A DNA stretch of 51,710 nt from Gammaproteobacteria bacterium (lineage in GTDB: Bacteria > Pseudomonadota > Gammaproteobacteria > GCA-001735895): positions 1-51,710 of the forward strand of contig JAJDOF010000076.1 in NCBI GenBank assembly GCA_022340305.1, in the 5' to 3' direction. The translations under genes and the position numbers were made by a program. Under the pieces are notes generated by a model. That model worked only from the letters and a program-made list of their open reading frames with translations. It made no database searches and had not been told where the DNA came from. Of the stretch, positions 23,786 through 39,308 are shown one piece after another. Every line of letters starts with the position of its first letter. Position 1 is the stretch's first letter.

Positions 23786-23799
23786 TTGACGCGGATCAA
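23786..23799 (-). promoter_or_regulatory. FNR box and class II promoter for hsp20
   Basis: TTGACGCGGATCAA differs from TTGAT-N4-ATCAA at one base. On the minus strand a -10-like TAGAGT lies at 23759-23764, its centre 31 bp from the box centre. This predicts transcription from about 23752 and a 46-nt leader. Confidence 0.72.
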
Positions 23800-26262: not shown

Positions 26263-27018
26263 ATGCTAACCCAGGTCCCATCACATCATTTGCCGCATGA
26301 ATGCCACGTCTGTGAGCCACGTGGCGGTTGTCTCGGCCTGCAATTACTGGACAGCGAAGAGGCGCGCCAGCAACTTTGCCACGCGAAGAAGATCAGCCGC
26401 AAGGGCGAGCATGTATTTCGCGAGGGTGAAGACGCAGATTGCTTTTACGTACTGCGCAGCGGTTCTCTCAAAAGTTACCTGGTGACCGAGGATGGCGAGG
26501 AGCAAGTGCTTGGGTTCTACCTGCCCGGCGATGTTTTCGGGCTGGATACCGCCGATTCACAGTTGCGCATGTCGTCAGCCGTGGCTTTGGAGACTGCCTC
26601 GGTATGCCGGTTTCCACACGCCTATCTGGGCGATAAGGCGCAGGGCGCCAATCTGTTGAAAATTACCGCGGAACAGATGCAACGCGATCATAACCTGGTG
26701 TTGATGTTGGCCCGCAAAGACGCCGATGGACGCATCGCCAGTTTTCTCGACGATCTCGCCTGCCGTTACTGGTCGCGGGGTTATTCGGCCTCGGCATTCT
26801 TGCTGACCATGTCACGTCAGGACATCGGCTGCTATCTCGGGCTGGCGGTCGAAACCGTGAGCCGAACCCTGACTCGCTTCCAGGAGTGTGGCGTCCTGAA
26901 AGTGAACCGACGCGAGGTTGAGATACTGGATCACGCCAGTTTGCGCAAGATGGCTGGCACCCGGGTCAACTCGATTGCAGTGGAATGTTGCCAGAAGGCC
27001 GCACTCAGTCCGAGTTGA
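26263..27018 (+). CDS. fnr: FNR-family oxygen-responsive regulator, copy 1
   Basis: This 251-aa CRP/FNR protein has the complete [4Fe-4S] sensor of FNR: Cys14, Cys17 and Cys23 (C-x2-C-x5-C) and Cys115 in ASVCRFP, matching E. coli Cys20, 23, 29 and 122. The cNMP-like beta roll spans about 45-140. The recognition helix LGLAVETVSRTLTRF has the E-x-x-S-R contacts that read TTGAT. A strong GAGGAG lies 6 nt before the ATG. It should activate the FNR boxes of this window when oxygen is low. It has an equally long paralogue at 27413, with an almost identical DNA-binding half. Confidence 0.92.
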   Translation: MLTQVPSHHLPHECHVCEPRGGCLGLQLLDSEEARQQLCHAKKISRKGEHVFREGEDADCFYVLRSGSLKSYLVTEDGEEQVLGFYLPGDVFGLDTADSQLRMSSAVALETASVCRFPHAYLGDKAQGANLLKITAEQMQRDHNLVLMLARKDADGRIASFLDDLACRYWSRGYSASAFLLTMSRQDIGCYLGLAVETVSRTLTRFQECGVLKVNRREVEILDHASLRKMAGTRVNSIAVECCQKAALSPS

Positions 27019-27125: not shown

Positions 27126-27412
27126 TCAACGCCTCCCCGCCCTGGATCAGCTGGTCGCAACCCGCGTAATTCCATTGGTAGCCATGACGGTTTTGCATTT
27201 CTGCCGCGGCTACTCGCTCGGCCTACAGTCTGTGTGCGGTAACGAACAGACATGGCATTACTATGGTGGCCATAGTAATAAGTCTCGGCATTCTTCGTTC
27301 CTGTGGTTTGTCGATCGAACTCGCTCAATTTTGAACTAACCAGGACCACGGCCATTTTCGCCAGGCCTGGCGTTTATATCTTTTGCCCAAGATCTACCGT
27401 CGAGGATTCGTC
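27019..27412 (+). other. Region between the two fnr genes
   Basis: The first 100 bp hold part of the TauE/SafE fragment described separately. The remainder has no recognisable gene. It contains a perfect hyphenated inverted repeat at 27257-27279 and presumably the promoter of fnr copy 2. There is no FNR-box match here. Confidence 0.5.
27257..27279. promoter_or_regulatory. Operator-like inverted repeat upstream of fnr copy 2
   Basis: ATTACTATGG and CCATAGTAAT are exact 10-bp arms around TGG. The site lies 134-156 nt upstream of the start of fnr copy 2 and is not a match to FNR, Fur or CRP consensus. Size and symmetry fit a dimeric regulator binding site. A hairpin in the leader RNA is the alternative. 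Confidence 0.55.
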
Positions 27413-28168
27413 ATGTTATCGCAGATTCATTCACATCCTGTTTTGCACGAGTGCCATACCTGTGAACCGCGCGGCGGTTGTCTCGGCCTGCAGTTGCTGA
27501 ACAGCCCGGAGGCACGGCAGCAGTTATGCAATGCGAAGAAAATCAGCTGCAAGGCGGAGCACGTATTTCGCGAGGGCGAAGACGCGGATTGCTTCTACGT
27601 GGTGCGCAGCGGTTCGATCAAGAGCTACCTGGTGACCCAGGATGGCGAAGAGCAGGTGCTCGGTTTTTACCTGCCGGGCGATGTGTTCGGGCTGGATACC
27701 ACTGCAGCGCAGCAGCGCATGTCCTCCGCAATTTTGCTGGAAACAACCTCGATCTGCCGTTTCCCCCATGCCTACCTGACGGACATGGCGCAGGGCTCGG
27801 CGCTGTTGAGCATCGCTGCGGAACAAATGCAACGCGATCACAACCTGATGCTGATGCTGGCGCGCAAGGACGCCGATGGGCGCATCGCCAGTTTACTCGA
27901 CGATCTCGCCTGCCGTTACTGGTCGCGGGGTTATTCGGCCTCGGCATTCTTGCTGACCATGTCACGTCAGGACATCGGCTGCTATCTCGGGCTGGCGGTC
28001 GAAACCGTGAGCCGAACCCTGACTCGCCTCCAGGAGTGTGGCGTCCTGAAAGTGAACCGACGCGAGGTTGAGATACTCGATCACGCCGGTCTGCGCAAGA
28101 TGGCTGGCACCCGGGTCAACTCGGTTGCCGTGGAATATTGCCAGAAGGTCGTACTCAGACCGGTTTGA
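27413..28168 (+). CDS. FNR-family oxygen-responsive regulator, copy 2
   Basis: This 251-aa paralogue of the upstream fnr keeps all four cluster cysteines (C-x2-C-x5-C near residues 14-23 and Cys in TSICRFP) and the same recognition helix. The start ATG at 27413 has GAGGA 6 nt upstream; the longer reading from 27383 adds ten residues with no support. Most changes between the copies lie in the sensor half, so the two may differ in oxygen sensitivity or cluster stability while binding the same DNA sites. Its 3' end overlaps the convergent TauE/SafE gene by 88 nt. Confidence 0.9.
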   Translation: MLSQIHSHPVLHECHTCEPRGGCLGLQLLNSPEARQQLCNAKKISCKAEHVFREGEDADCFYVVRSGSIKSYLVTQDGEEQVLGFYLPGDVFGLDTTAAQQRMSSAILLETTSICRFPHAYLTDMAQGSALLSIAAEQMQRDHNLMLMLARKDADGRIASLLDDLACRYWSRGYSASAFLLTMSRQDIGCYLGLAVETVSRTLTRLQECGVLKVNRREVEILDHAGLRKMAGTRVNSVAVEYCQKVVLRPV

Positions 28169-34959: not shown

Positions 34960-34973
34960 TTGATTTAAGTCAA
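34960..34973 (-). promoter_or_regulatory. FNR box and class II promoter for the Yip1-cco operon
   Basis: TTGATTTAAGTCAA matches TTGAT-N4-ATCAA with one mismatch. On the minus strand AATAAT at 34933-34938 is centred 31 bp from the box, giving transcription from about 34926 and a 22-nt leader to the Yip1-like gene. The same box lies 81 nt upstream of the divergent ccoI, but no matching -10 exists on that side. Confidence 0.72.
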
Positions 34974-35047: not shown

Positions 35048-37543
35048 ATGGAATCGCCCCTGGCAACTCCGAATATTAATAAGATAGCGAATGGGGAGCA
35101 CCGTGACAATGCCTGCTTCCATTGCGGTTTGCCTTTGATGCCCGGAGTCGATCTCAGCCTCGCCATCGATGGCGCCGAGCGGCCGCTGTGTTGTCACGGT
35201 TGCCTGGCCGTCGCGCAGGCCATAATCGCGGCTGGCCACGAAAACTTTTACCGCGTGCGCACCGAGGCTGCGCCGACCGGGCAGGAGCTGGTGCCCGAGT
35301 TTATTCGCGAGAGTGAGATTTTCGATGCGCCGCAAATCCAGCTTCAGTACGTGCATCGACTCGAGAGTGACAGCCGTGAGATCAGCCTGATCCTTGAAGG
35401 CATCACTTGTGCGGCCTGCGTCTGGTTGAACGAACAGACCATCGCGGCCCTGCCCGGAGTTGAACAGGTGCGGGTGAATTACGCAACGCAGCGGGCGCTG
35501 GTGCGTTGGCATGACAAGCGTATCAAGCTCAGCGAGATATTGCAGGCGATCCGCAGGATCGGTTACCGCGCATTGCCCTACAATCCCCAACAGCAACAGG
35601 AATCAGACCGCCGCCAACGGCACTTGCAGCAACGACGTCTCGCCGTGGCCGGGCTGTTCGGCATGCAGGTGATGATGTTGTCGATCAGCCTGTATGCGGG
35701 CGCCTGGTCGGGAATGGAGCCATCGTTCGCACAGTTTTTCCGTTGGCTCAGTCTCGGTTTGACGCTGCCGGTGGTGGGCTATGCCGCGATTCCGTTTTTC
35801 AGCGCCGCCTGGCGTGATCTGAAACAGCGGCGGGTGAGTATGGACCTGCCGGTGAGCGTTGCGATTCTGGTCGCTTTCACCAGCAGTTGCGTGGCGACGT
35901 TCGCTGCCGATGGCGAGATATACTTCGATTCGGTGGTGATGTTCGTGTTCTTTCTGTCGGCGAGCCGATATTTCGAGACCATGGCGCGACAACGCTGTGC
36001 CGCCGCGGTGGAGAGAATGGCGCAATCCCTGCCGCTGACCGCGACACCCCTGGACAGTAACGGCAACGCGCTCCCCGTGGTGCCCGCGGCGATGCTGGCT
36101 CCCGGAGATCGCGTACTGATTCGAGCCGGTGAAACGGTTCCGGCCGACGGCGTCATCGTAAGCGGATTTTCAGCGCTGGACGAATCCCTGCTATCCGGTG
36201 AAAGTAACCCACGCGACAAGGCGCTCGGTGACAGCTTGCTCGGCGGTAGCGTCAACGTGACGCAACCGTTACAGATGGAAGTGAGTGCGGTGGGCGCGGA
36301 TACGGTAATGGCTGAAATTCAGCGCAGCATCGAGCGTGCCCAGGCTGACAAGCCGCCGCTGGCCCGATTCGCTGATCGCGTCGCCGCGCGCTTCATCAGC
36401 CTGGTATTGATTCTTGTTATCGGGGTTGCCGGCTACTGGTGGCTGCTTGAATCCGAACAGTGGTTTGAAATTGCCCTCGCCGTACTAATCGTCAGTTGCC
36501 CCTGTGCACTGTCGCTGGCGACACCCACCGCGATCAGCGCGACGCTCGGTAAGATGCAGGCCGCAGGTTTGCTGGTCAGACAGGCCATGGCGCTGGAAGA
36601 ACTGCATCGGGTGACGCATGTGGTATTCGACAAGACCGGCACGCTGACGCCTGGAAAGCCGGTACTCGAACAGGTGCTTTACAATCCGGCCTGCATGGCA
36701 GACGACTGCCTTGCGATTGCGGCAGCCCTGGAACAGCATTCCACGCACCCGTTGGCGCTAGCCCTGTTGAGAGCTACTGATGCTACTGGCTTGCACAACG
36801 AGGGCAAAAGCCATGCCAGCGCGGTCAGTAGCACAGCTGGCGGAGGCCTGTGCGGCAACATCGACGGGATCCGCTATCACCTCGGCAGCAGCGATTTCAT
36901 TCGCCACGAGACAGCTGCCGAGATTCCATCGGACTGGCTCGAACAGATCGATGCCGAAGCCGTTACTGCCGTTTTCCTGGCGGGTTCCGCTGAGGTGCTG
37001 GCGATGTTTACTTTTCGCGACGAGTTGCGCGCCGATGCCGCTGCCACGGTCGCGGCGTTACGCGCATGCGGTAAGTCGGTGCTGTTGATGACTGGCGATC
37101 GCGCCCGGGTGGCACAGCAGATTGCAGAGCAGGCGGCGATCGGCACCTGGCGCGCGCAGATGACACCGCAGGCAAAAATGGATGCAGTACAGGTGCTGCA
37201 AGCCGAAGGCGCGATAGTATTGATGGTCGGCGACGGCATTAATGACGCCCCGGTACTGGCCGCAGCCGACGTCTCGATTGCGATGGCGGGTGCCAGTTCA
37301 CTTGCCAAGATCAATGCCGATATCGTGCTGATGCGCGATCGCCTGGGCGGTATTGTCGATCTCTTCGACATGGCCGCGCGTACGCGGCGGATTATTCGGC
37401 AGAACATGAGTTGGGCGTTACTCTATAATTTCGGGGCAATACCGGCCGCGGCGATGGGCATGGTAGCACCATGGCTGGCTGCGCTCGGCATGTCGCTGAG
37501 TTCGTTGCTGGTAGTGATCAACGCGATGAGGTTGACACGTTAA
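35048..37543 (+). CDS. ccoI: CcoI/FixI copper-transporting P-type ATPase
   Basis: This P1B-type ATPase of 831 aa exports Cu(I) across the membrane for assembly of cbb3. It has an N-terminal cysteine-rich domain (CFHCGLPLMPG, CCHGCLAVAQ), an HMA-type GITCAACVWLNE, the transmembrane SCPCALSLATP, the phosphorylation site DKTGTLT and GDGINDAPVLAAADVSIA. I chose ATG 35048 over 35000. The longer form has no ribosome site, and sequence between the two starts carries a likely -10 (TATACA at 35010-35015). ccoS begins at the base of its stop codon. Confidence 0.92.
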   Translation: MESPLATPNINKIANGEHRDNACFHCGLPLMPGVDLSLAIDGAERPLCCHGCLAVAQAIIAAGHENFYRVRTEAAPTGQELVPEFIRESEIFDAPQIQLQYVHRLESDSREISLILEGITCAACVWLNEQTIAALPGVEQVRVNYATQRALVRWHDKRIKLSEILQAIRRIGYRALPYNPQQQQESDRRQRHLQQRRLAVAGLFGMQVMMLSISLYAGAWSGMEPSFAQFFRWLSLGLTLPVVGYAAIPFFSAAWRDLKQRRVSMDLPVSVAILVAFTSSCVATFAADGEIYFDSVVMFVFFLSASRYFETMARQRCAAAVERMAQSLPLTATPLDSNGNALPVVPAAMLAPGDRVLIRAGETVPADGVIVSGFSALDESLLSGESNPRDKALGDSLLGGSVNVTQPLQMEVSAVGADTVMAEIQRSIERAQADKPPLARFADRVAARFISLVLILVIGVAGYWWLLESEQWFEIALAVLIVSCPCALSLATPTAISATLGKMQAAGLLVRQAMALEELHRVTHVVFDKTGTLTPGKPVLEQVLYNPACMADDCLAIAAALEQHSTHPLALALLRATDATGLHNEGKSHASAVSSTAGGGLCGNIDGIRYHLGSSDFIRHETAAEIPSDWLEQIDAEAVTAVFLAGSAEVLAMFTFRDELRADAAATVAALRACGKSVLLMTGDRARVAQQIAEQAAIGTWRAQMTPQAKMDAVQVLQAEGAIVLMVGDGINDAPVLAAADVSIAMAGASSLAKINADIVLMRDRLGGIVDLFDMAARTRRIIRQNMSWALLYNFGAIPAAAMGMVAPWLAALGMSLSSLLVVINAMRLTR

Positions 37544-37734
37544 TGGAAATCATCTACCTGTTGATCCCGATTTCGCTGCTCCTGCTCGGGCTGATCCTGT
37601 GGATATTGTTGTGGGCGGTACGCGACGGTCAGTATGACGATCTGGAGGGGCCTGCGCATAGTATCCTGATGGATGAAGACAAGATCGTCGAGCGGGAGGC
37701 CGAGCCAGGAAAAAATAGCCAGCAAAAAAAATAG
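37543..37734 (+). CDS. ccoS: CcoS/FixS, cbb3 maturation protein
   Basis: This 63-aa protein has one helix (residues 4-25), then AVRDGQYDDLEGPAHSILMDED, the diagnostic CcoS motif with the DGQ[YF]DDLE signature. It is needed for haem/copper cofactor insertion into CcoN. ATG at 37543 overlaps the ccoI stop by one base. The 3' end abuts the hairpin assigned to the convergent strand. Confidence 0.92.
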   Translation: MEIIYLLIPISLLLLGLILWILLWAVRDGQYDDLEGPAHSILMDEDKIVEREAEPGKNSQQKK

Positions 37735-37755
37735 CCGGCGGGGAGGTGCCGGCTA
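37724..37755 (-). terminator. Intrinsic terminator for hemN and the candidate sRNA
   Basis: The 8-bp stem TAGCCGGC/GCCGGCTA with an 8-nt loop is followed on the minus strand by eight Ts. It lies 95 nt after the hemN stop and overlaps the end of ccoS. On the plus strand no T-run follows, so it is oriented for hemN. Confidence 0.85.
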
Positions 37756-37785
37756 AATACTCTAGATACATAAGAGTAGGAGTCA
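37724..37785 (-). ncRNA. Candidate FNR-activated small RNA with anti-Shine-Dalgarno loop
   Basis: No protein gene explains this. On the minus strand a perfect FNR box (37819-37832) is followed 31 bp (centre to centre) by -10-like TAGACT (37792-37797), predicting a start near 37785. The RNA would be about 62 nt. It opens UGACUCCUAC, then has stem-loop 1 (arms UACUCU and AGAGUA, 37758-37778) and stem-loop 2 (arms UAGCCGGC and GCCGGCUA, loop ACCUCCCC, 37732-37755), ending in U8 (37724-37731). The C-rich loop and 5' CUCC can pair with GGAGG ribosome sites. It could also be released from the hemN 3' UTR. No homologue is known to me. Confidence 0.4.
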
Positions 37786-37818
37786 GTACCGAGTCTAGGT
37801 AATTATGCCGGGGTGTAT

Positions 37819-37832
37819 TTGATGTAGATCAA
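37819..37832 (-). promoter_or_regulatory. Orphan perfect FNR box between convergent ccoS and hemN
   Basis: TTGATGTAGATCAA is an exact match to TTGAT-N4-ATCAA. It is only 17 nt after the hemN stop codon, in a place where no protein gene would start. A -10 at 31 bp occurs on the minus strand only. It is taken as the promoter of the candidate small RNA. Confidence 0.7.
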
Positions 37833-37849
37833 TTAAAACCGCTCACGTT

Positions 37850-39244
37850 CTAAATAGTGCGCGAAAAGGTGCCGCGGCTGGTCGCGGCAGACTGGTAGCG
37901 ATCGAAGATCATGCAAATGTTGCGCACCAGCAACCTTCCCGGTTCCAGTACCACGATGTCGCCGTCGAGTGCCAGCAGTCCATCTTTCTCCATAGCCTTG
38001 AGGCGTTCTATTTCGACGGCAAAGTAATTGCGGAAGTCGATGCTCCAGTTCTTCGCGATAGCCCGCGTGTCGAGCCTGAAATGGCACACCAGCTGCTGGA
38101 TAATGTCGCGTCGCAACAGGTCGTCATTGCGACTTTCATATCCGCGCACTACCGGGAGATGTGATCTTTCGAGGCTGTCGTGGTAAGTCTCGAGACTGGT
38201 GGTGTTCTGGCTGAAATTATCCTCTACCTGACTGATCGCGGAAACGCCGAAGCCGATTGAGTCACATTGCGTATGCGCCGAGTAACCCTGGAAATTACGG
38301 TGCAAAGTTCTATTGCGCTGTGCGACAGCCAGTTCATCGTCCGGTTTCGCAAAATGATCCATGCCGATGTACTCGAATCCTGCCGCTGACAGCTGACCGA
38401 TGGCGCTGTGCAGAATATCGAGTTTTACGGCTGAATCCGGCAAGTCTTCGGCCCTGATATGTTGTTGCGGTGGGAAGCGATGTGGCAGATGCTCATAGCT
38501 GTACATCGCGATGCGGTCGGGTGCCAGCTCGATAATCTGCTGCAATGTGGTCGAAAAACTCTGCAGGGTCTGATGTGGCAGGCCGTAAATCAGGTCGAGG
38601 TTGATCGAGCGAAAACCCTGCTCGCGAGCATCGTCAATAACCCTTCTGGTCACTTCCATGCTCTGCACGCGGTTGACGGCCTTCTGCACTTTTTCGTCGA
38701 GGTCCTGCACGCCAATGCTGATGCGGTTGAAACCGAGGCGGCGCAGCTGTGCGACGCTGCCTGTCTCGACAACGCGTGGATCGAGTTCGATCGAATATTC
38801 GTTGCCTGCCCCGCGGCGCAGCGAAAAATGCTGCGCAATTTTTTCCATCAGTTGCTGCATTTGCCGCTGTGATAGAAAGCCGGGCGTACCACCACCCCAG
38901 TGCAGCTGATGTACCTCGCGATCGCGATCATACAGGGAGGACTGTATCTCGATTTCCCGGTACAGATCCTGCAGATAAGGCTCGGCAAGTTCCTTGTCTT
39001 TGCTAATGACCTTGTTGCAGGCGCAGTAATAGCAAAGCGAACTGCAAAACGGGATGTGGAAATAGAGCGACAGCGGTTTCGGTATCGGTTCCTCGTTGCT
39101 TTGCCGCGCCCAGTCACGATAGTCAAACTCGGTAATGCCGTCGTGAAATTCGGTTGCTGGAGGATACGAGGTATAGCGCGGACCGGGCTTGTCGTAGCGG
39201 GTAATCAGGTCTTCCTTGAATAGGAGCGGTCTCGGCATTTGCAT
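37850..39244 (-). CDS. hemN: Oxygen-independent coproporphyrinogen III oxidase (HemN)
   Basis: This 464-aa radical-SAM enzyme carries the cluster motif C67-x3-C71-x2-C74-x-C76 in IPFCSSLCYYCACNKV, plus the HemN-specific GPRYTSYPPATEFHD and PGFLSQRQMQQL. It converts coproporphyrinogen III to protoporphyrinogen IX without O2, so haem synthesis can continue when cbb3 is induced. An FNR box is centred 57.5 nt upstream. Intrinsic termination follows 95 nt after its stop. The C-terminal HemN domain covers about residues 370-440. Confidence 0.95.
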   Translation of the reverse strand: MQMPRPLLFKEDLITRYDKPGPRYTSYPPATEFHDGITEFDYRDWARQSNEEPIPKPLSLYFHIPFCSSLCYYCACNKVISKDKELAEPYLQDLYREIEIQSSLYDRDREVHQLHWGGGTPGFLSQRQMQQLMEKIAQHFSLRRGAGNEYSIELDPRVVETGSVAQLRRLGFNRISIGVQDLDEKVQKAVNRVQSMEVTRRVIDDAREQGFRSINLDLIYGLPHQTLQSFSTTLQQIIELAPDRIAMYSYEHLPHRFPPQQHIRAEDLPDSAVKLDILHSAIGQLSAAGFEYIGMDHFAKPDDELAVAQRNRTLHRNFQGYSAHTQCDSIGFGVSAISQVEDNFSQNTTSLETYHDSLERSHLPVVRGYESRNDDLLRRDIIQQLVCHFRLDTRAIAKNWSIDFRNYFAVEIERLKAMEKDGLLALDGDIVVLEPGRLLVRNICMIFDRYQSAATSRGTFSRTI

Positions 39245-39294: not shown

Positions 39295-39308
39295 TTGACG
39301 TAAATCAA
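39295..39308 (-). promoter_or_regulatory. FNR box of hemN
   Basis: TTGACGTAAATCAA has one mismatch to the consensus. It lies 51-64 nt upstream of the hemN ATG. Minus-strand -10 candidates are GATACT (39270-39275) at 29 bp or TACTCT (39268-39273) at 31 bp, giving a start near 39261-39263. Confidence 0.7.

Follow-up and report, generated by a model that had tools for sequence, protein, structure and literature searches.

Between the converging genes hemN and ccoS of a gammaproteobacterial draft genome (GCA_022340305.1; 4.35 Mb, 86% complete) lies a perfect FNR box in a gap where no protein gene starts, and the question raised by this locus is what the box controls. The window, by which we mean the whole stretch of DNA that was analyzed, was the entire 51,710-nucleotide contig JAJDOF010000076.1. 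A first-pass annotation of this DNA had proposed an FNR-activated small RNA with an anti-Shine-Dalgarno loop. Having followed up that proposal computationally, we assign a probability of about 0.75 to the reading that the gap holds the gene for a trans-acting, FNR-activated small RNA, a branch similar to Rfam family RF02278, which would repress mRNAs not needed at low oxygen.

Locus and predicted transcript

ccoS and its upstream partner, a ccoI-like gene, lie on the plus strand and converge on minus-strand hemN; the gap is convergent, as had been claimed, because ccoS ends at 37734 and hemN at 37850. The features of the locus were as follows.

37850 to 39244, minus strand: hemN, on the same strand as the RNA, with 64 nt from its stop to the RNA 5' end
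37819 to 37832, minus strand: FNR box TTGATCTACATCAA, a perfect match, centered 41 nt upstream of the G at 37784, as for a class II activator
37792 to 37797, minus strand: -10 hexamer TAGACT, starting 21 bp past the FNR box
37724 to 37785, minus strand: predicted small RNA of 61 to 62 nt, 5' end at 37785 or 37784, from sequence and conservation
37773 to 37784, minus strand: 5' end GACUCCUACUCU, invariant in aligned copies, with its first 6 nt complementary to GGAGUC-type ribosome sites
37758 to 37778, minus strand: hairpin 1 (UACUCU/AGAGUA), with a variable loop sequence
37732 to 37755, minus strand: hairpin 2, the predicted intrinsic terminator stem UAGCCGGC/GCCGGCUA, from fold, terminator scan, and alignment
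37740 to 37747, minus strand: C-rich loop ACCUCCCC, anti-Shine-Dalgarno-like, wholly unpaired in the predicted ensemble
37724 to 37731, minus strand: U8 tail, read in the sequence
37543 to 37734, plus strand: ccoS, its last 11 nt overlapping the RNA gene on the opposite strand

Read along the minus strand from the hemN stop, the order is FNR box, TAGACT, and then GACUCCUACUCUUAUGUAUCUAGAGUAUUUAGCCGGCACCUCCCCGCCGGCUAUUUUUUUU down to 37724. The perfect box, the minus-facing TAGACT, the 5' CUCC, the C-rich loop, and the U8 tail were all found as the first-pass annotation had described them, and its RNA of about 62 nt with two stem-loops agreed with the predicted fold: the 62-nt sequence formed two hairpins at -20.4 kcal/mol (z, -5.4), a stability reached by 0 of 200 shuffles, with the first 6 nt unpaired (p of 0.94 to 0.99 in the predicted ensemble). 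Hairpin 2 was the top one of 13 terminator-like sites listed for 32 to 42 kb, tied in pairs with one other, but a terminator-like site alone is not special there, since 9.1 were expected from shuffles against the 13 listed. Transcripts of hemN would be ended by this predicted terminator too.

The window held 11 FNR boxes with at most one mismatch, against 1.33 expected from shuffles; a box-like site with one mismatch lies upstream of hemN (39295 to 39308). The claim that the 31-bp spacing between box and -10 hexamer is shared by three other boxes was confirmed in part: when a hexamer was accepted if at least 4 of its 6 positions matched TATAAT, the 31-bp center-to-center spacing was seen at 2 of the 10 other boxes in the window (23786 to 23799 and 34960 to 34973). 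Two predicted proteins of the FNR type are encoded in the same window.

26263 to 27018, plus strand: Fnr-like regulator with a C-x2-C-x5-C N-terminus (NF008365, E 4.8e-56, 189.8 bits, cut-off 228)
27383 to 28168, plus strand: second Fnr-like regulator, also with C-x2-C-x5-C (NF008365, E 3.6e-52, 177.1 bits, cut-off 228)

NF008365 was the best match of both, at scores under its cut-off. The C-x2-C-x5-C motif is presumably the iron-sulfur ligand site. The two regulators are very similar and stand consecutively on the plus strand, adjoining cytochrome-oxidase genes.

On the preferred reading, when oxygen is scarce, an Fnr-like protein would bind the box at about -41.5 and recruit RNA polymerase to the TAGACT promoter, a step to which the conserved sequence and spacing point. 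About 62 nt would be transcribed up to the intrinsic terminator, giving an RNA with the predicted two-hairpin fold, the unpaired GACUCC(U) and terminator-loop CUCCCC of which would pair with GGAG or GGGGAG ribosome-binding sites, probably with Hfq (present in 25 of 31 same-genus genomes, this one included). Pairing would in turn lower the translation of mRNAs unwanted at low oxygen. The pairing and repression step is suggested by the anatomy of the RNA, its conserved pairing parts, and its described relatives, and the silencing of functions unneeded without oxygen would be expected by analogy with FnrS.

Conservation among relatives

The 136-bp gap was searched at the DNA level in 57 genomes (its own, 30 of the same genus, 5 of the same family, and 21 other members of the class). 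The element was found in 18 of the 57, namely its own genome and 17 of the 30 same-genus relatives; 13 of the 31 same-genus genomes, all 5 same-family genomes, and all 21 other class genomes gave no match to the gap. For 11 of the 17 relatives, little beyond the RNA was matched (81 to 92% identity), despite HemN being only 60 to 80% identical at the protein level.

All 18 aligned copies begin with the 12 invariant nucleotides GACUCCUACUCU, and the exact 5' sequence GACTCCTACTCTTA was found at 17 of the 18 loci, with a close variant in the remaining genome (G003). The C-rich loop was nearly invariant, reading AUCUCCCC in many relatives. Every copy had an FNR box (0 to 2 mismatches) centered 41 to 43 nt before the G, its best-scoring -10 hexamer (TAGAAT, TACAAT, TATAAT, and similar in relatives; 4 to 6 of 6 positions matching TATAAT) 21 to 23 bp past the box, and its conserved 5' end 6 to 8 nt downstream of that hexamer, so that a TTGAT-N4-ATCAA-type box near -41.5 plus a -10 hexamer, the arrangement of a class II promoter, is present in 18 of 18. 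Mean pairwise identity reached 0.89 across the RNA and 0.80 across the box but only 0.36 and 0.38 in the 19-nt stretches after and before the box, respectively. This pattern, as read from the alignment, marks a promoter and an RNA instead of an extended block of conserved intergenic DNA. The first-pass annotation had named loss of the box and stem-loops from close relatives as evidence against itself; the opposite was found, with box, -10 hexamer, stems, and C-rich loop kept at near-fixed spacing in all 18 copies.

All 13 stem pairs could form in every row of the alignment, compared with 23 to 56% of cells in slid-register controls. Ten of the pairs never vary and one is changed on both sides (G026). 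The pairing pattern fits the predicted fold but gives weak evidence of covariation, since most pairs are constant and 68 of 500 shuffles reached the observed score.

A covariance model built from the 18 hemN-linked copies (R1) recovered the same 18 from 41 genomes of the family (E of 1.5e-12 or better), each adjoining hemN, along with four further weak matches (E of 7e-4 to 0.09). Over 274 sampled genomes of the class, R1 matched 8 at E of 0.01 or less. Matches were strong in the two genomes of the same genus; among the other six, G305 scored highest (39.2 bits, E 2.7e-5), with a double-hairpin RNA that begins ACCUCCUCUUGG and has no FNR box upstream. An exact-pattern scan of contigs returned 16, comprising 15 from gammaproteobacterial metagenome bins and one from the Olavius algarvensis Gamma 3 endosymbiont.

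One same-genus genome missed by the DNA search (G024; HemN identity, 59%) has the same layout downstream of hemN: an FNR box TTGACCTAGGTCAA with two mismatches, 21 bp (spacing by eye), TAATAT, AGUUCCCUCUCUCU, a hairpin, and a terminator, followed by what was judged by eye to be the end of ccoS. Its RNA, which scored 20.1 bits against R1 (E 0.022), has a CU-rich 5' end and the terminator loop UUUCCCC; to judge by the sequence, layout and pairing parts have been kept while the sequence has turned over. The arrangement is absent from another same-genus genome (G016), where something else lies downstream of hemN, and the hemN copies of several same-genus genomes that gave no match are broken or distant.

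Alternative explanations

Cleavage of the hemN mRNA by an RNase, besides or instead of initiation at a promoter of its own, would make the RNA a 3'-untranslated-region-derived small RNA. The position of the RNA directly downstream of hemN, the box-like site upstream of that gene, and the described precedents of NarS, from the 3' end of narK mRNA (PMC8139620), and the processed S17S (PMC11722255) speak for such an origin. A processed end would need no promoter, however, and all 18 copies have a -10-like hexamer 6 to 8 nt before the 5' end, which favors a primary start; we regard this explanation as improbable.

Somewhat less credence still is given to the explanation that the element is the hemN terminator and 3' untranslated end only, with an FNR box that is incidental or serves another gene. 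hemN does share the strand, with its end 64 nt upstream, and the hairpin with its U8 tail makes a good terminator, but a terminator leaves unexplained both the 12 invariant 5' nucleotides and the box and -10 hexamer at class II spacing, kept in 18 of 18 copies amid DNA at 36 to 38% identity; G024, moreover, holds the spacing though its RNA sequence has changed.

The remaining alternative turns on the overlap with ccoS, for which a frame was sought at 19 loci; three (L015, L018, and L035) gave none by pattern and were left out. At 12 of the 16 readable loci ccoS, on the opposite strand, overlaps the RNA gene by 32 nt; at 4 of 16, the window's own included, it stops in another frame 10 to 11 nt into it, at the outer bases of hairpin 2. 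At the 12 loci (for example L002, L008, and L013) the complement of the terminator hairpin encodes the C-terminal tail of CcoS (QKNSRRGGAG-like). Because both groups retain hairpin 2, and because the row with the doubly changed pair (G026) comes from a locus at which the ccoS frame does not extend through the hairpin, selection likely acts on the RNA rather than on the CcoS tail. That the RNA is a cis-acting antisense RNA pairing with the 3' ends of read-through ccoIS transcripts, or soaked up by them, is the explanation we rate lowest: the overlap speaks for it, as does the lack of a U tract after hairpin 2 on the plus strand, because of which ccoS transcripts may read on, but sequence conservation is not required for antisense pairing, and the RNA greatly exceeds the DNA flanking the box in conservation; the hairpin, too, is kept at the 4 loci where ccoS ends in the other frame.

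Relation to double-hairpin RNAs

Rfam at gathering scores gave no match in the window. Below threshold, RF02278 matched the RNA end to end (positions 1 to 64 of 64; 29.6 bits; E 1.1e-4 for 111 bases). Formal membership in RF02278 fails because this score lies below the gathering cut-off of 50 bits, which was also reached in none of 31 same-genus genomes. The layout of the family is present, with two hairpins, an unpaired CU-rich 5' end, a U tail, and a length within the range of 57 to 67 nt. Other subthreshold Rfam names (rseX, anti-hemB, suhB, and ar14) were judged to be chance or shared CU-rich or terminator likeness. FnrS gave no match at gathering scores in the window, nor up to an E of 10 for 37650 to 37900.

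At an E of 1e-3 or less, RF02278 matched 83 of 274 class genomes (2 over the cut-off) and 0 of 14 control genomes; at an E of 0.1 or less it matched 29 of 31 same-genus genomes but 6 of the 14 controls as well. A second model (R2) was made from 26 RF02278-like RNAs, five of the same genus and none hemN-linked, and is not independent of RF02278. Its sole match in the window at E of 10 or less was the RNA, at full length (26.8 bits; E 2.8e-4 in 91.7 kb), and six other tested hemN-linked copies scored 23 to 32 bits; a match at L035 (14.7 bits, E 0.22) was out of register and was excluded from support. On account of the full-length subthreshold RF02278 match and the R2 match, we place the RNA in a wider double-hairpin class, as a branch under predicted FNR control.

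Thirty class-level RF02278-like loci were taken, of which 29 were readable (L081 was left out, as were L110, L117, L118, and L119 of the same genus), and no FNR box with at most two mismatches was centered 35 to 50 nt upstream in any of the 29. A weak two-mismatch box at 41 nt in L103 looks like promoter AT-richness. By eye, most of the 30 (L072 to L101) have CUCCUCC-type 5' ends and many a promoter of the type TTGACA...ATATTAGA; the same-genus loci L102 to L106 and L131 grouped with the CUCCUCC-type double-hairpin RNAs. Judged by these sequences, double-hairpin RNAs seem widespread in Gammaproteobacteria, and the "Betaproteobacteria" family looks wider than its name. More hairpin RNAs starting with CUCC were seen in the window's own genome (C92:11279-11335, L108; C53:11389-11434, L064) and in relatives (L063 in G012; L120 in G015). 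None of these four has an FNR box in the 75 to 80 nt upstream, and they are perhaps siblings of the hemN-linked RNA.

An FNR box followed by CTCCT at the spacing of the small RNA was matched in 85 of 369 class genomes. Ninety matches were read (30 loci and 60 stretches, one of them truncated; a few further matches, the window's own among them, lay outside these), and three passed a terminator test: L329 of the same genus, the false-looking L350, and L362, from a genome of another family (G107). The last (L362/L394; minus strand, 239 to 125) consists of FNR box TTGATCCAGATCAA, 22 bp, AATACT, ACUCCUCC, and a strong terminator whose loop is CAUCCCC, and it scored 27.1 bits with R2. It is possibly a second, independent FNR-driven RNA of the double-hairpin class, although 1 in 90 could be chance.

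Target searches

Pattern searches for paired ribosome sites found no target. The exact 9-nt complement of the 5' end before a start codon (AGTAGGAGT-N3-10-ATG) gave 14 matches in the 31 same-genus genomes, of which 3 fell in the 18 RNA-bearing genomes and 11 in the remaining 13, against 43 and 31 for backward-pattern controls (Fisher p 0.018, uncorrected for kinship). The shorter TAGGAGT-N3-10-ATG was matched in all 31 genomes, 121 times in the RNA-bearing and 137 times in the others, against 413 and 325 for the controls (p 0.014, likewise uncorrected). The relative rarity of these complements before ATG in RNA-bearing genomes may hint at avoidance, but the matches are mutually dependent, and composition and kinship could also account for it.

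From the TAGGAGT matches, 80 stretches were taken: 74 represented 11 of the 18 RNA-bearing genomes, and 6 came from other genomes. The 52 reading frames examined fell into four clusters, two of which by eye resemble rpmG and flgI, and no convincing recurrent low-oxygen target was found among these 52 frames of the matches listed. For sdhC, suggested by the targets of the Neisseria NmsR RNAs, no GGAG-type site was seen by eye upstream at any of 28 loci; duplex energies there (-8.1 to -28.8 kcal/mol) lacked a control and were set aside.

Comparison with known systems

FnrS, at about 120 nt, is longer than the hemN-linked RNA, and its place and structure differ. In E. coli and Salmonella it is described as made under FNR without oxygen and as repressing genes unneeded then (PMC8139620). 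The first-pass annotation had called FnrS the closest known concept, which stands for function only, as an analog; in structure, the RF02278-like double-hairpin RNAs are closer.

Described members of RF02278 ("Betaproteobacteria toxic sRNA") are NcS03, NcS05, NcS27, and NcS62 of Burkholderia cenocepacia, with S17 of Bordetella pertussis similar. The hemN-linked RNA shares with such RNAs the short form of 57 to 67 nt, the unpaired CU-rich 5' end with a CUCCU-type motif, a short first hairpin, an AUU linker, and a terminator hairpin with a U tail; unlike them, it probably pairs through its C-rich terminator loop as well, and its predicted promoter contains an FNR box. For NcS27, PMC5688073 describes predicted pairing of the CU-rich parts at ribosome sites, slower growth on overproduction, and greater abundance in biofilm, stationary phase, starvation, and glucose medium; by word count, neither FNR nor anaerobic occurs in the main text of that paper. 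S17S, which is processed from a longer RNA and has a 5' end similar to that of the double-hairpin RNAs, is described as directly repressing one mRNA, as predicted to cover the ribosome sites of others, and as not clearly toxic in E. coli (PMC11722255).

Two anti-Shine-Dalgarno parts are also shared with the sibling RNAs NmsRA and NmsRB of Neisseria meningitidis, in which one lies between stems and one in a loop, and which act on ribosome sites (PMC5362039). They differ in having three stem-loops and a tandem arrangement, and FNR control is not described for them in the parts of PMC5362039 drawn on here; their targets are given there as tricarboxylic acid cycle mRNAs, whereas sdhC here lacks a GGAG-type site. 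AniS of N. meningitidis (FnrS in gonococci), NarS, PaiI, and PcrZ are likewise made under oxygen limitation (PMC5362039, PMC8139620) and are likened to the hemN-linked RNA by description only; PaiI is described as NarXL controlled and NarS as FNR dependent and encoded at the 3' end of narK mRNA (PMC8139620).

In the openly accessible literature searched on FNR-dependent or anaerobic small RNAs and on double-hairpin or RF02278 RNAs, an FNR-controlled RNA of the double-hairpin class was not found. The proposed RNA would be a known kind of RNA under a control not found described for it. More speculatively, and with clearly less than even weight, the double-hairpin anti-Shine-Dalgarno class may reach far beyond Betaproteobacteria, with one sibling captured by FNR at a high-affinity-oxidase and heme locus as a low-oxygen repressor, an equivalent of FnrS of separate origin; because the end of ccoS lies across from its 3' hairpin on the other strand, ccoIS read-through could neutralize the RNA, coupling its activity to oxidase assembly.

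Low-oxygen repressor RNAs are already known in E. coli, Salmonella, and Neisseria. Uncultured gammaproteobacteria, one of them the O. algarvensis Gamma 3 endosymbiont, would follow this logic on another RNA scaffold. If the preferred reading is true, FNR-driven RNAs have evolved as low-oxygen repressors more than once, and the class labeled toxic small RNAs includes members that answer a clear physiological signal. The proposed RNA would be FnrS-like in its logic and NcS27/S17-like in its structure.
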